The notes beneath the pieces are model-generated. The model was not told where the DNA came from. It saw only the letters and a program-made list of their open reading frames with translations, and made no database searches. A DNA stretch of 6,105 bases from Candidatus Tectimicrobiota bacterium (GTDB lineage Bacteria; JACPSX01): NCBI GenBank assembly GCA_016193065.1, contig JACPSX010000223.1:1-6105 (forward strand), in the 5' to 3' direction. The translations under genes were made by a program, and so were the position numbers. This document shows positions 36 to 5,115 of this stretch, piece after piece (within the stretch, counting starts at the first letter, position 1; every line of letters begins with the position of its first letter).

Positions 36-2233
36 TGCCGACGGCACACCTTCTCTTGGCGATTCACTGTCACCAACCCGTCGGCAACTTCCCCGAAGTG
101 TTCGAGAGAGCCTACCGGGAATGCTACGAGCCGTTCCTCAAGACCGTCATCGACCACCCCGGCGTGCTCATGACCCTGCACTACAGCGGACCCTTGCTGG
201 AGTGGCTGGAAGAGCATCAGCCCGAATATCTGGACAACTTAAAGGCCCTCGTCGAGCGCGGCCAGGTGGAAATGATGGGAGGGGGCTTTTACGAGCCCCT
301 GCTGCCCACGATCCCCGAGGAAGACGCCCTGGGCCAAATTGAGATGATGAGGAATTACGTCCAGCACCACTTTAACTGCACTCCCAAGGGGATCTGGCTG
401 GCGGAACGAGTTTGGGACCCGGATCTTCCCCGCCTCCTGCAGCGGGCGGGAGCGCACTACACTGTGTTAGACGAGACCCACTTTCTGTACGGCGGGCTCA
501 AGCCGTCGCAGATCATGGGTTCCTACATCACCGAACGACTCGGAAGCACGGTGTCTGTATTTCCCATCTTGAAGAAGCTGCGCTACATGATCCCCTTCAA
601 GCCGGTCGAGGAGGTTATTGCGACCCTGCGCCAGTTCGCCGAGGCGAATCCGGGAGAGGGGTTCACCTACGGAGACGACGGGGAGAAGTTCGGCCTGTGG
701 CCGGGCACTCACAACTGGGTCCACAAGCAGGGGTGGCTGCAGAGTTTCTTCAGCGCCCTGGAGAAAAACGCGGACTGGCTCAAGCTCGACCACTTCTCCA
801 CGTTCCTGGAAAAGCACAAGGCGCGAGGGCGCATCTACCTGCCGCCTGCCTCTTATGAGGAGATGATGGAATGGGCCCTGCCCGTGGAAAGTTCCCGAAG
901 GTTTAAGGAAATCCAGGAGACTGTAAGACGCTGGGACAAAAGCGAGCTTTATCTCCCCTTCCTGCGGGGCGGGCAGTGGGAAAACTTTCTGGTCAAATAT
1001 CCCGAGAGCAACCAGATCCACAAGAAGATGCTCCACGTGAGCCAAAAGATCTCCCAGGCGGCAGCCACCCACGGTGCGAGCCCGGACCTGCAGGCCGCCC
1101 GCCGCCACCTGTGGAAAGGCCAGTGCAATTGCGCCTACTGGCACGGCCTGTTTGGAGGCCTCTACTTGAACTACCTGCGCCACGCTCTCTACGAAAACCT
1201 GCTGGCCGCCGAGCAAATTCTTGATCGTCTGGAGCGAGGAGACGGCCCCTGGGTGGACAGCGAACGGATCGACTTCAACCGGGACGGGCAGGAGGAGGTC
1301 CTGTTGCGCAATCCCACCTTGAACCTCTACCTGGATCCGGCCAGGGGAGGCTCCGTGTGGGAGCTGGACTACAAGCCGGCACGATTCAACCTCTCCAACG
1401 TCCTGGACCGCCGTGAAGAGGCCTACCATGCGGAGGTCAAAAATTCGGCCCGAGGACAGCAGCAGGATTTGTGGCAGCGACCGACCACGATTCACGAGCG
1501 GGCGCACGCAAAAGAAGACGGCATCGAGAGCCTGCTTGTTTACGACTGGTACCCCCGCCGCTCTTTTCTCGACCACATCTTCCCCGTGGAAACCTCTCTG
1601 CAGGACTTCAGCCGAAGCGCTTACCGGGAGTGGGGAGATTTCGTGAACCAGCCTTATGATGTAACGGGGCTCACAAGATCCCCTGCAGGGGAAACCCTCC
1701 GGCTGGAGCTCCGGCGGCAGGGAACTCTCTGCACCCCGGAGCAGGCAGTCCCCCTGGAGATCTCAAAGTCTCTGGAGATGAGCGGCAGCGAGACCAGGGT
1801 CCGGGCCCTCTACCGGCTTGCCAGCAGCCGGCCTCGTCCGCCCCGGATCCGTTTCGGCTGCGAGTTTAATTTCACCCTCCTGGCCGGAAACGATCCCCAG
1901 CGCTATTTCCGTATTCCCGGGGTCCCGCCGGAAGAGAGCCAGATGGAGAGTTTCGGAGAAGTTTGCAATGTGAGAGAACTGTTCCTCGTGGACGAATGGG
2001 GCAAGTTTGCCCTTGGTCTTTTTTTCAGCCAGCCCTGTACCCTATGGCGGTTTCCTCTGGAGACAGTCTCCCAGGCCGAGTACGGTTTCCAGAGAACGTA
2101 TCAGGGTTCCGTCCTGCTCCCCTGGTGGCTCTTGAATTTGGACGAGGAGAACCACTGGAACCTGGAAATCCGCATCGAGGTCAAGAATATTGAGGAATGG
2201 CGACATGACCGGCGTTTTTCCCGCCCGTTTTAA
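35..2233 (+). CDS. GH57 family glucan-processing enzyme (4-alpha-glucanotransferase / alpha-amylase type)
   Basis: This is a 732-residue glycoside hydrolase family 57 protein, probably cytoplasmic because no signal peptide is visible. The family cleaves or transfers alpha-1,4-glucan chains by a retaining mechanism, so a role in glycogen or maltodextrin metabolism is likely. The N-terminal barrel starts at once with LLLAIHCHQPVGNF, the conserved first GH57 motif. GIWLAERVWDPD carries the expected nucleophile at Glu124, and YGDDGEKFGLWPGTH carries the acid/base at Asp214 or Asp215. These positions nearly match E123 and D214 of the Thermococcus litoralis glucanotransferase. WHGLFGGLYLNYLRH follows near residue 375. 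The remainder resembles the DUF1925/DUF1926 beta-rich domains of that subgroup, ending in WNLEIRIEV. An in-frame GTG at 23 would add MGRL, but the ATG at 35 matches the family N-terminus and overlaps the upstream stop. Transferase versus hydrolase activity cannot be decided from sequence. The stop codon TAA lies on the edge of a mobile element. Confidence 0.93.
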   Translation: MPTAHLLLAIHCHQPVGNFPEVFERAYRECYEPFLKTVIDHPGVLMTLHYSGPLLEWLEEHQPEYLDNLKALVERGQVEMMGGGFYEPLLPTIPEEDALGQIEMMRNYVQHHFNCTPKGIWLAERVWDPDLPRLLQRAGAHYTVLDETHFLYGGLKPSQIMGSYITERLGSTVSVFPILKKLRYMIPFKPVEEVIATLRQFAEANPGEGFTYGDDGEKFGLWPGTHNWVHKQGWLQSFFSALEKNADWLKLDHFSTFLEKHKARGRIYLPPASYEEMMEWALPVESSRRFKEIQETVRRWDKSELYLPFLRGGQWENFLVKYPESNQIHKKMLHVSQKISQAAATHGASPDLQAARRHLWKGQCNCAYWHGLFGGLYLNYLRHALYENLLAAEQILDRLERGDGPWVDSERIDFNRDGQEEVLLRNPTLNLYLDPARGGSVWELDYKPARFNLSNVLDRREEAYHAEVKNSARGQQQDLWQRPTTIHERAHAKEDGIESLLVYDWYPRRSFLDHIFPVETSLQDFSRSAYREWGDFVNQPYDVTGLTRSPAGETLRLELRRQGTLCTPEQAVPLEISKSLEMSGSETRVRALYRLASSRPRPPRIRFGCEFNFTLLAGNDPQRYFRIPGVPPEESQMESFGEVCNVRELFLVDEWGKFALGLFFSQPCTLWRFPLETVSQAEYGFQRTYQGSVLLPWWLLNLDEENHWNLEIRIEVKNIEEWRHDRRFSRPF
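2191..2195 (+). promoter_or_regulatory. Ribosome binding site choosing the 2205 start
   Basis: TGAGG lies nine bases before the ATG at 2205, inside the last codons of the GH57 gene. An upstream in-frame TTG at 2190 has no comparable site. This supports the ATG at 2205 as the start of the DUF3108 gene and suggests translation coupled to the GH57 gene. Confidence 0.5.
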
Positions 2234-3275
2234 CAGGCTGCTGAAAAAGTCTGTTTCGTGGTTCGACAGGCTCACCACGAACGATCCGGTACCCTTGTTT
2301 TCAATACCAGCCCCGTTCGGCCTCACCCGGAAACTGGGTACCCGGTCGAAGGCTGAACGGAGGGTTTTTCAGCACCCAGTTAGGGCAGCAGCTTTCGGAG
2401 CCACCCTGATTCCGGCCGTCTTGTGGATGCTGACTGCAACGGCGGGCGTTCATGCTCAGGACAGACCCTCCGACTCCGCTCAGGGCAGGCCTCCCGACTC
2501 CGTTCGTCCTCACCCGGAAGCCGGGTACCTGGTCGAAGGACGAACGGTTGTCCAGGACCACTCCGGTCCTGGAGCAACCGCCCTCCCCTTTCACGTCGGT
2601 GAAGAGCTGACCTTTGACTTGACCTGGATGGGAATCAAAGGGGGAACGGCCACAATGGCGGTCCCCGAAAAGACCACGTGGGCGGGTGTCCCGGTTTATC
2701 ACCTGGTCACAACGGCCGAGTCGGCTCCTGCGGTCTCGGCCTTCTACCGGGTCGAGGACAAGGTCGAAAGCTTCGTAGAGGTGCGGGGCCTCTTCCCGCT
2801 TTACTTCAAGTCCCGGCAACAGGAGGGAAAATACCGGGGTGCCAAAGACATCTTCTTCGATCCACAGACGGGTAAGGCCACTTACCGCAAGAACCAGGAG
2901 CCGACGGAAGTCTTTCCCGTCCCTCCGGGAGTTCAAGATGCCCTTTCGTCCTTCTATTATTTAAGGACGCTTCCTTTAAAATCCGACGCGCCCGTTATGA
3001 TCACGATGTTTGACAGCAAGAAGACGGCGCAGGTCGAGGTCCAGATTCTGGGTAGAGAAAAGGTGAAAACTCTCTGGGGGCCGGTCCAGACTCTCAAGGT
3101 GAAGCCTATTCTAAAGACCGAGGGGATCTTCAGGCGCAAGGGAGATGTCCTGATTTGGCTCACGGAGGATTTCCAGAAGCTCCCCCTGCGGATGGAGAGC
3201 AAGATCCCCATCGGCTCCATCGTCGCCACACTGGTCAACATCCGCGGCGCCAACCCACCGACTCCCTCGCCGTAG
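2205..3275 (+). CDS. DUF3108-type exported protein with repeat-derived N-terminal region
   Basis: The 356-residue product matches the DUF3108 style, a beta-rich family of exported proteins of unknown function, from about residue 127 to the end. Recognisable pieces are LPFHVGEELTFDLTWMGIKGGTATM, then YRVEDKVESFVE with LFPLYFKSRQQEGKY, and the C-terminal WLTEDFQKLPLRMESKIPIGSIVATL. A hydrophobic segment at residues 60-84 (AAAFGATLIPAVLWMLTATAG) ends in VHA followed by Q, a good signal peptidase I site. What precedes it is odd. Codons 10-59 are exactly a 150-bp MITE-like element, leaving only MTGVFPARF from the presumed original start. Codons 84-125 are a second block of repeats. Removing the first insert gives a normal signal peptide of about 34 residues. 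Export today may therefore work from a long n-region, from an internal start, or poorly. The gene overlaps the GH57 gene by 29 bases. I cannot say what the protein does beyond a likely envelope role. Confidence 0.82.
   Translation: MTGVFPARFNRLLKKSVSWFDRLTTNDPVPLFSIPAPFGLTRKLGTRSKAERRVFQHPVRAAAFGATLIPAVLWMLTATAGVHAQDRPSDSAQGRPPDSVRPHPEAGYLVEGRTVVQDHSGPGATALPFHVGEELTFDLTWMGIKGGTATMAVPEKTTWAGVPVYHLVTTAESAPAVSAFYRVEDKVESFVEVRGLFPLYFKSRQQEGKYRGAKDIFFDPQTGKATYRKNQEPTEVFPVPPGVQDALSSFYYLRTLPLKSDAPVMITMFDSKKTAQVEVQILGREKVKTLWGPVQTLKVKPILKTEGIFRRKGDVLIWLTEDFQKLPLRMESKIPIGSIVATLVNIRGANPPTPSP
2255..2281. repeat. Palindromic hairpin within the MITE-like element
   Basis: TTCGTGGT (2255-2262) and ACCACGAA (2274-2281) are a perfect 8-bp inverted repeat around an 11-base loop. 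The core, TTCGACAGGCTCACCACGAA, is of a kind I know as a widely scattered palindromic repeat in environmental bacterial genomes. It often shows up in spurious reverse-strand translations as VVSLSNHE. Recognition is from memory and would need a genome-wide search. Confidence 0.6.
2313..2360. repeat. 48-bp palindromic repeat, copy A
   Basis: The outer arms CCGTTCGGCCT (2313-2323) and AGGCTGAACGG (2350-2360) pair over 11 positions with one G-T wobble. An internal hairpin is formed by ACCCGG and CTGGGT around a three-base AAA loop. It matches copy B at 2500-2547 in 42 of 48 positions. It lies inside the MITE-like element, in frame within the DUF3108 gene. Confidence 0.72.
2454..2501. repeat. Two tandem 24-bp repeats encoding AQDRPSDS / AQGRPPDS
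   Basis: Two adjacent 24-base units (2454-2477 and 2478-2501) match in 20 of 24 positions and encode two in-frame octapeptides. The repeats begin at the codon for the last residue of the predicted signal peptide. The unit resembles the CGACTCCGCTCAGGGCAGG type of dispersed repeat, whose reverse translation reads ACPERSRR. The peptide is therefore probably a by-product of a DNA repeat and not a selected motif. Confidence 0.7.
2500..2547. repeat. 48-bp palindromic repeat, copy B
   Basis: The outer arms CCGTTCGTCCT (2500-2510) and AGGACGAACGG (2537-2547) pair perfectly over 11 bp. An internal hairpin is formed by ACCCGG and CCGGGT around an AAG loop. It differs from copy A at six positions. One pair of differences swaps a G-C for a T-A pair in the outer stem, so the stem is kept while its sequence changes. 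Confidence 0.75.
2546..2579. repeat. Long hairpin abutting copy B
   Basis: GGTTGTCCAGGACC (2546-2559) pairs with GGTCCTGGA plus CAACC (2565-2573 and 2575-2579) around a five-base loop, with one bulged G at 2574. This gives 14 base pairs. It completes a block of repeats from 2454 to 2579, which is 126 bp or 42 codons, between the signal peptide and the start of the DUF3108 domain. Confidence 0.65.
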
Positions 3276-3857: not shown

Positions 3858-4256
3858 CTATCCCATCTTCACAACCTTGAGACCACAGAGCTTCTCGATT
3901 GGATCGAAGTCTTTGTCATTGTGCAAAAGGCGGATGTTGTGTTCGATAGCCACGGAAGCGATCATGCAATCAACCGCCTTACGAATCGTGATGCCATGCC
4001 GCCGTAGCGTTCGATACAGCTCCGATGCTCTCACAAAGGTACGCCGACTCATCTGGAGGAAAAGGAAGGTGTCAAACCGTGATAGGGTTTTGGTGTAATT
4101 TGAGTCATCGCGAATCCCCTGCAGGACTTCGGTAAGAATGACCCCACAAATACAGATATCCTCCCCCTCTGTGAGGAAATGCTCCAGTGTTTGGACCTGC
4201 GGCGTGTTCTTCCCACCAAAGAAGTCCACCCACACGGTGGTATCGACAATGACCAC
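3858..4256 (-). CDS. vapC: VapC-type PIN-domain ribonuclease toxin
   Basis: The 132-residue protein has the full PIN-domain pattern. The N-terminal strand MVIVDTTVWVDFF holds Asp5. LTEVLQGI holds Glu43. AVDCMIASVA holds Asp96, and LLHNDKDFD supplies Asp114 or Asp116 as the fourth acidic ligand. In this family these residues bind Mg2+ or Mn2+ and cut RNA, often tRNA or rRNA, when the protein is not held by its antitoxin. The length is normal and nothing is missing. The start is a GTG, two bases past the stop of vapB, with AAGGGA inside the vapB end as a possible ribosome binding site. This tight spacing makes synthesis of toxin depend on translation of antitoxin. Base composition is visibly less GC-rich than in the GH57 and permease genes, which fits a horizontally moving module. 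Confidence 0.93.
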   Translation of the reverse strand: MVIVDTTVWVDFFGGKNTPQVQTLEHFLTEGEDICICGVILTEVLQGIRDDSNYTKTLSRFDTFLFLQMSRRTFVRASELYRTLRRHGITIRKAVDCMIASVAIEHNIRLLHNDKDFDPIEKLCGLKVVKMG

Positions 4257-4258
4257 CG

Positions 4259-4459
4259 CTATGCCCGTCCCTTACGCCACTCCTCAAGGTCGCCTTCCCA
4301 GCGAACCGCCCCTTTGAGTTCGAGCACTTTCTTCTGGCGTTTGTGCCTGAGCAATTCATGCAGGGCGTGGTCGATCAGCGTCCGAAGCGTTCGGATCCCA
4401 GTCTCCTTCTGGCATTTGGCAACGAGGTCATCATCCAGAACGACATTCGTCCTTCTCAT
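4259..4459 (-). CDS. vapB: VapB-type antitoxin (ribbon-helix-helix family)
   Basis: The 66-residue protein begins MRRTNVVLDDDLV, the usual beta strand and first helix of the small VapB group also known as DUF2191. The following helix, TLRTLIDHALHELLRHKRQKK, completes the DNA-binding dimer fold. The C-terminal tail LELKGAVRWEGDLEEW is typical of the segment that wraps around and blocks the VapC active site. The frame runs 17 codons further upstream, but the ATG at 4459 has AGGAGG eight bases before it and gives the standard family N-terminus. It is the first gene of a two-gene unit with vapC. A promoter and an inverted repeat lie directly upstream, consistent with autorepression by the VapBC complex. 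Confidence 0.92.
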   Translation of the reverse strand: MRRTNVVLDDDLVAKCQKETGIRTLRTLIDHALHELLRHKRQKKVLELKGAVRWEGDLEEWRKGRA

Positions 4460-4467
4460 ACGAGCCA

Positions 4468-4473
4468 CCTCCT
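4468..4473 (-). promoter_or_regulatory. Ribosome binding site of vapB
   Basis: AGGAGG (written CCTCCT on the plus strand) stands eight bases before the ATG at 4459. It fixes the vapB start and rules out the longer upstream reading. Confidence 0.8.
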
Positions 4474-4476
4474 CGA

Positions 4477-4505
4477 ATACACATATATAGACTTTTAATG
4501 TGTAT
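4477..4505. promoter_or_regulatory. Inverted repeat, candidate VapBC operator
   Basis: ATACACAT (4477-4484) and ATGTGTAT (4498-4505) are perfect 8-bp inverted arms separated by 13 bases. Their centres are 21 bp apart, two helical turns, so both arms face the same side of the DNA. The arms overlap the predicted -10 and the edge of the -35 element of the vapB promoter. Ribbon-helix-helix antitoxins usually repress their own operons through such sites. The operator role is inferred. Confidence 0.65.
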
Positions 4506-4510
4506 GGCAA
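4482..4510 (-). promoter_or_regulatory. Predicted sigma-70 type promoter of vapBC
   Basis: On the minus strand TTGCCA (4505-4510) is followed after exactly 17 bases by TATATG (4482-4487). Transcription would start near 4475, giving a short leader of about 16 bases with the vapB ribosome binding site. The AT-rich patch stands out from its surroundings. Confidence 0.55.
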
Positions 4511-4583: not shown

Positions 4584-4952
4584 CTACGCTGCTGGAATTG
4601 GGCCGGCAGCAACCAGTCTCCTCCTGGTTGGGCTCACAACCAGGTTGAGTCCTTCGAGGGTACGAGCCCCAAGAAGAACGAGGTCTCCTTTTTCTGCGAC
4701 CACGACTTCATCGATGGTGAAGTACTTGTCCACCCGGATGACCGCAAAGCCGACACTTCGTGTGACCACTGTGCCGTTCGTCATGACAAAGGATACGTCC
4801 TTTTTCTCACGGTTCACTCCTATCCTGTCCAAGATCGCTTCTGGCAGCCGGGTATGCTCACTTCCGGTGTCAACAAGAAGCTTGGGTATTCGCGCGGACT
4901 TCTTCCTATTAATGTGGTTTTGAATCAATGCGCCAACATAGAATGTTCCCAT
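4584..4952 (-). CDS. Clan AA (retropepsin-like) aspartic protease
   Basis: The 122-residue protein has the layout of small bacterial retropepsin-like proteases, which act as dimers with one catalytic Asp from each chain. It begins MGTFYVGALIQN. The active-site segment KLLVDTGSEHTRLP has Asp28 in the Asp-Thr-Gly motif. The second hallmark, VLLGARTLEGLNLVVSP, lies near residues 91-107 and ends in the usual RRRLV tail. No signal peptide or membrane segment is seen, so it is probably cytoplasmic. The natural substrate is unknown for this family. The frame is open for six more codons upstream, but AGGAG stands six bases before the ATG at 4952, and the family starts with MGTF. The gene lies 124 bases upstream of vapB on the same strand, and a broken second copy lies beyond vapC. 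Confidence 0.85.
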   Translation of the reverse strand: MGTFYVGALIQNHINRKKSARIPKLLVDTGSEHTRLPEAILDRIGVNREKKDVSFVMTNGTVVTRSVGFAVIRVDKYFTIDEVVVAEKGDLVLLGARTLEGLNLVVSPTRRRLVAAGPIPAA

Positions 4953-4958
4953 TGCGTT

Positions 4959-4963
4959 CTCCT
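4959..4963 (-). promoter_or_regulatory. Ribosome binding site choosing the 4952 start
   Basis: AGGAG (CTCCT on the plus strand) sits six bases before the ATG at 4952. The alternative ATG at 4970 lies upstream of this site and would add MEQENA, which the family lacks. Confidence 0.65.
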
Positions 4964-4979
4964 GCTCCATTCTTCGCCG

Positions 4980-5115
4980 AACGGGGCGGCGGATGAGCCG
5001 TGGCCCGCAGGGCCATTGGTTCCATCCTCGGGTTCGGCCGCCGCAGGCGGCCGCAACCAGCGGGGCTCAACCGCCGCCCCGTTTGCCCGGACGCCTGCGG
5101 CCGGGCGAACCAATG
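4980..5115. repeat. GC-rich block of interleaved inverted repeats
   Basis: Two long inverted repeats cross each other. The first joins 4980-4999 with 5064-5083 and matches in 19 of 20 positions. The second joins CATTGGTTC (5014-5022) with GAACCAATG (5107-5115) and is perfect over 9 bp. Local hairpins fill the spaces: TGGCCC-GCA-GGGCCA (5001-5015), CGGCCGCC-GCA-GGCGGCCG (5035-5053), and GCCCGG with CCGGGC (5085-5106). A competing pairing is TTGGTT (5016-5021) with AACCAG (5055-5060). No gene is supported here. It could be a palindromic mobile repeat, two nested ones, a structured RNA or a recombination site. It is not an ordinary intrinsic terminator, as no T-run follows on either strand. Confidence 0.65.

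Follow-up and report, generated by a model that had tools for sequence, protein, structure and literature searches.

A MITE-like element lying in frame at the overlap of a GH57 and a DUF3108 gene, and the occurrence of its family at stop codons

The GH57-DUF3108 overlap and its repeat element

The stretch of DNA analysed, which will be referred to as the window, is a contig of 6105 bp (C199) from a 2.9 Mb genome comprising 294 contigs and 86% complete. Its plus strand carries a gene for a GH57 / 4-alpha-glucanotransferase-like protein (23-2233; PF03065, PF09094, PF09095) and, starting within the 3′ end of this gene, a gene for a DUF3108 protein with a signal peptide (2205-3275; PF11306, 3.5e-48). 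The ATG at 2205 is preceded by GAGGA eight bases upstream, and the GH57 stop codon sits nine codons into the DUF3108 gene. GH57 ends on the left target copy of a short element, through which the DUF3108 gene reads. The minus strand further downstream encodes a PIN-domain / VapB-like toxin-antitoxin pair (3858-4510; PF01850, PF09957) and a retropepsin-like aspartyl protease (4584-4970), the latter ORF lying beside GC-rich inverted repeats at 4980-5113 (20 nt, 95%; 14 nt, 93%) that are probably another repeat.

A preliminary description of this DNA had proposed an element with 17-bp inverted ends and exact bounds at 2232-2381. The inverted pair is real: 15 of those 17 nt are complementary, and 16 of 18 nt at 2231-2248 and 2365-2382. 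For a pair of this latter quality, the chance expectation at a spacing of 60-240 bp is ~0.08 per 6.1 kb, equal base use being assumed. The net insertion of 150 bp holds in either phase of the boundary, but the exact boundary is ambiguous. In the repeat-aware reading, the whole unit (2230-2383) consists of a left YTAR target copy TTAA (2230-2233), a core of 146 bp on the plus strand (2234-2379) and a right target copy TTAG (2380-2383) that differs from the left one by one base, so that the target duplication is imperfect here. Inverted-repeat and pattern searches placed the terminal inverted repeats at 2234-2248 (CAGGCTGCTGAAAAA, plus strand) and 2365-2379 (TTTTTCAGCACCCAG, minus strand; reverse complement CTGGGTGCTGAAAAA). 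Two palindromes lie between them, A at 2255-2282 (TTCGTGGT-N11-ACCACGAA) and B, of 48 nt, at 2313-2360, which occurs a second time at 2500-2547 (88%). An Rfam search gave no matches.

The TAA at 2231-2233 within the left target copy is the stop codon of GH57, and this codon as well as TTT (2229-2231) and AGG (2382-2384) had been correctly described. The inserted length of 146+4 bp is a multiple of three, and both genes are open once the 150 bp are removed. Within the terminal inverted repeat, the GH57 frame meets TAR and the second (+2) frame meets TGA; the +1 frame alone is open, which is that of DUF3108. An element with inverted ends thus lies in frame at the gene overlap with both genes intact, confirming the original observation. 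The accompanying model of a clean excision stands insofar as both genes are open without the 150 bp; this cleanness is a consequence of duplicating an IS5-type YTAR target over TAA/TAG and does not show that an excision ever took place. An empty allele was not found and a DUF3108 scan of the genome contigs gave nothing, in a set that includes no other genome of the phylum; in the same contigs, a DNA pattern combining the end with palindrome A had 0 matches.

The element family and autonomous insertion sequences with its ends

Forty-six stretches of the same genome resemble the element, the best DNA identities being 91, 89, 80 and 77%. The end pattern ARCAGGMTGCTGAAAAA, allowing up to three mismatches, yielded 84 matches in this genome compared to 11 for a reversed-pattern control, and such a multi-copy family rules out a chance origin of the inverted ends. 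By our own count of the genome, examined as targeted stretches around the copies, ~29 distinct copies retain at least one recognisable end, many of them degraded. Their ends read YTAR|CAGGMTGCTGAAAAA...TTTTTCAGCAKCCTG|YTAR, they measure 131-190 bp overall, and the inner palindromes A and B lie inside; flanks are decayed or non-YTAR in several of them (L002, L063, L092, L111). Short length, terminal inverted repeats, many copies and the lack of a transposase gene are all characteristic of MITEs. The earlier designation as MITE-like is consequently upheld, the ends being found at many other places in the genome.

Related repeats were also encountered. Four loci of this genome (L008, L040, L054, L061) represent another repeat family with common inner palindromes and different ends (about GGAGACTGTGTC), which indicates that the palindromes behave as modules or move separately. 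L063 and L086 (contigs C149 and C141) carry yet another type of element, 144 bp long, with similar ends and another interior (CCGGGTACCCG...).

IS5 is reported to duplicate a target of the form Py-T-A-Pu, CTAG being the commonest (PMC5493358). Direct CTAA/CTAA flanks were detected at L098 in the same genome and at L144 on a viral contig, TTAA/TTAA at L139 and L142, and CTAG/CTAG at L041 and L005. For the palindromic CTAG or TTAA flanks, a duplication and an extended inverted end are not separable, whereas CTAA is asymmetric, so that L098 and L144 demonstrate a 4-bp YTAR target duplication. A six-base GAAAAC duplication considered at L041 was dropped in favour of YTAR, since other copies are without GAAAAC.

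Autonomous insertion sequences carrying the ends of the family are present in other genomes. A full-length IS of 1340 bp (L179) has the family's terminal inverted repeats, CTAG on both sides and a transposase with DUF772 and DDE_Tnp_1 domains; in another genome, a full-length IS of 1331 bp (L172) has the family's ends and is likewise bordered by CTAG. Ends of 15 nt are common to the MITE and the ISs at L179, L172, L183 and L145, all in other genomes or contigs. A truncated transposase beside a family-type end on a viral contig matched the NCBIfam models for IS5 and IS1182 below their cut-offs, as expected of a fragment. Inverted ends, YTAR (often CTAG) target copies and the terminal repeat CAGGCTGCTGAAAAA are thus features that the window element has in common with IS5/IS1182-type ISs and their MITEs; it differs from the ISs in comprising 146 bp without a transposase, and no autonomous copy was found in the MAG. 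As judged from its ends and flanks, the element most likely belongs to the MITEs of the IS5/IS1182 type, with duplication of a 4-bp YTAR target; the partner-type transposase scores on the models of both families. From the shared ends we infer mobilisation by a DUF772/DDE transposase. A search of the MAG (86% complete) detected no transposase of the matching type; it was run without a positive control, so that its empty answer shows little, and the gene may have been missed in the assembly or the master copy lost. A DDE transposase at L131 of the same genome was rejected as partner as it lacks the family ends.

Copies at stop codons

Eleven copies, including that of the window, adjoin the stop codon of a gene recognised by Pfam. 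The genes concerned are, besides GH57, those for AdoMet synthetase (MetK, L005), thiolase (L041), HSP20 (L049), aldolase II (L050), a flagellar rod protein (L054), an ABC transporter (L070), dCTP deaminase (Dcd, L079), a PALP enzyme (L080, where the stop is TGA), an Fe-S/CCG protein (L099, GTAG) and an S1 protein (L126). About a third of the sister copies in the genome are also located on stop codons. In several of these genes, the domain ends only a few residues short of the protein end (380/383 for MetK, 434/437 for thiolase, 117/120 for the flagellar rod protein), and the stops are thus very likely native. A putative in-frame C-terminal extension at L043 was discarded, the 560-codon ORF lying opposite a better gene.

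The TAA or TAG forms the last three bases of YTAR, so that duplication of the target regenerates the stop and the insertion appears clean. At the window, a transposase recognising CAGGMTGCTGAAAAA ends would attack the YTAR target, and duplication of its 4 bp would regenerate TAA/TAG on the near side and keep the end of GH57. With the GH57 stop nine codons inside DUF3108, the insertion would lengthen the latter gene by 146+4 = 150 bp, and since the one stop-free frame of the terminal repeat is that of DUF3108, this gene would gain 50 codons upstream of the signal-peptide core. That a non-autonomous IS5/IS1182-type MITE was inserted at the YTAR holding the GH57 stop, thereby adding 50 codons to DUF3108, is in our judgement highly probable. 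The rule of the stop-codon target explains why both genes survived.

The frequency of such sites was evaluated with a simple codon-model gene caller. Called stops hold eight of the 20 YTAR-bearing copies compared to 25 of 262 non-genic YTAR sites (Fisher p = 7e-4), or to 25 of 448 YTAR sites overall (p = 2e-5); this caller is a rough one whose codon model had ten of the named stop-adjacent genes plus GH57 as its training set, the loci were fetched from the same genome because they hold copies, and the surviving copies show selection as well as target choice. The enrichment probably reflects survival rather than target choice: insertion would occur at any YTAR, copies within genes would be purged, and those at stops and in intergenic sites would remain. 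Some copies do lie in intergenic DNA, and at L137 an IS end of the family type interrupts a tape-measure gene, which indicates that the machinery is not stop-specific and follows YTAR rather than the stop codon itself. Against survival as the sole cause, the enrichment persists when only non-genic YTAR sites are compared, with the reservations about caller and loci given above. It is less likely that the family, or even IS5/IS1182 elements with YTAR targets at large, hits TAA/TAG stops beyond what avoidance of gene disruption would produce, spreading through coding-dense genomes without breaking genes and creating N-terminal extensions at overlaps. One IS end (L183) lies directly at the point where a proline dehydrogenase gene terminates. 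The IS at L172 had seemed to lie on a stop codon, but the more probable gene, BirA-like by eye, terminates ~70 bp before it.

A target that holds a stop codon, which its duplication rebuilds, would explain in a simple way how gene-dense genomes can tolerate some small transposons. Where genes overlap, such a harmless insertion would give rise to new coding sequence, linking the target choice of a transposon to the evolution of protein N-termini.

The DUF3108 leader and comparison with known repeat elements

The present DUF3108 protein begins with MTGVFPARF-[50 residues]-RAAAFGATLIPAVLWMLTATAGVHA|QD, in which the hydrophobic core and the AGVHA|Q cleavage site (2382-2456, plus strand) were predicted by hydropathy and the -3,-1 rule. 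Without 2232-2381 it would read MTGVFPARFRAAAFGATLIPAVLWMLTATAGVHA|QD, with an N-region, a hydrophobic core and small residues at -3 and -1, and by the same two predictors this leader appears typical of a Sec signal peptide, in agreement with the preliminary description. Core and predicted cleavage site are identical with and without the insert. Homologues of DUF3108 with a readable N-terminus (~30-38% identity) possess ~30-80 residues ahead of the domain, without a 50-residue block, so that a leader of ~130 residues, as found here, is exceptional. Behind the signal peptide, the linker contains a second palindromic repeat array (2454-2582, plus strand), which is in frame and comprises two units of 24 nt, a module of 48 nt sharing 88% identity with 2313-2360, and a hairpin (GGTTGTCCAGGACC/GGTCCTGGAGCAACC).

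We infer that translation starts from ATG 2205 and that export persists despite an N-region of ~60 residues. This is long for a signal peptide, and an in-frame TTG at 2295 within the element offers a later start; DUF3108 might then begin in or after the element, the insertion being real but outside the exported protein, and it would be by accident that the frame is open from ATG 2205 onwards. Such a later start is unlikely, as the GAGGA motif precedes ATG 2205 whereas TTG 2295 has none, the sole later in-frame ATG/GTG/TTG codons of the leader (2421, 2427) fall inside the hydrophobic core, and without the insert ATG 2205 leads straight into a typical signal peptide. Still less credible is the idea that the elements persist at gene ends because they act as bidirectional hairpins or terminators (domesticated 3′ elements), with the window copy as a by-product. 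Folding is strong on both strands (the window copy has z of -2.9 and -4.2, and L041 has about -7) and TTTTTCAG follows the inner hairpins, but a terminator scan detected none at the element, and termination between GH57 and DUF3108 would have a polar effect on the overlapping gene.

In-frame fusions of MITEs as such are already known from Rickettsia palindromic elements and from the Correia, ERIC and YPAL elements, one of them forming part of a signal peptide (PMC10969869, PMC2229807); what is new here is the nesting on stop codons, and a limited, partial literature search found no paper on stop-codon regeneration via a YTAR target. The analogy to Rickettsia palindromic elements drawn in the preliminary description proved weak. 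Those elements are of similar size (105-150 bp), palindromic and in frame in coding genes (PMC10969869, PMC2229807), but they recur within ORFs that are conserved, and the peptide they encode is conserved as well, whereas among the ~29 copies of the present family the window copy is the only supported case of a translated insertion, the others lying on stop codons or between genes. QMITE1 and QMITE2 of Coxiella overlap 3′ ends of genes, at times supplying only the stop, and are occasionally inserted in frame, QMITE2 measuring 150-190 bp; QMITE2 differs in its 7-11 nt direct repeats, variable in sequence and not of the YTAR type, and the parts of that report available to us do not describe regeneration of a stop through target duplication (PMC5896051). 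In Yersinia, a YPAL/RU-2 element is fused in frame at YPO1552 and feeds a predicted signal peptide (PMC2229807). There, YPAL itself codes for part of the signal peptide, whereas the window element only lengthens the region ahead of the core.
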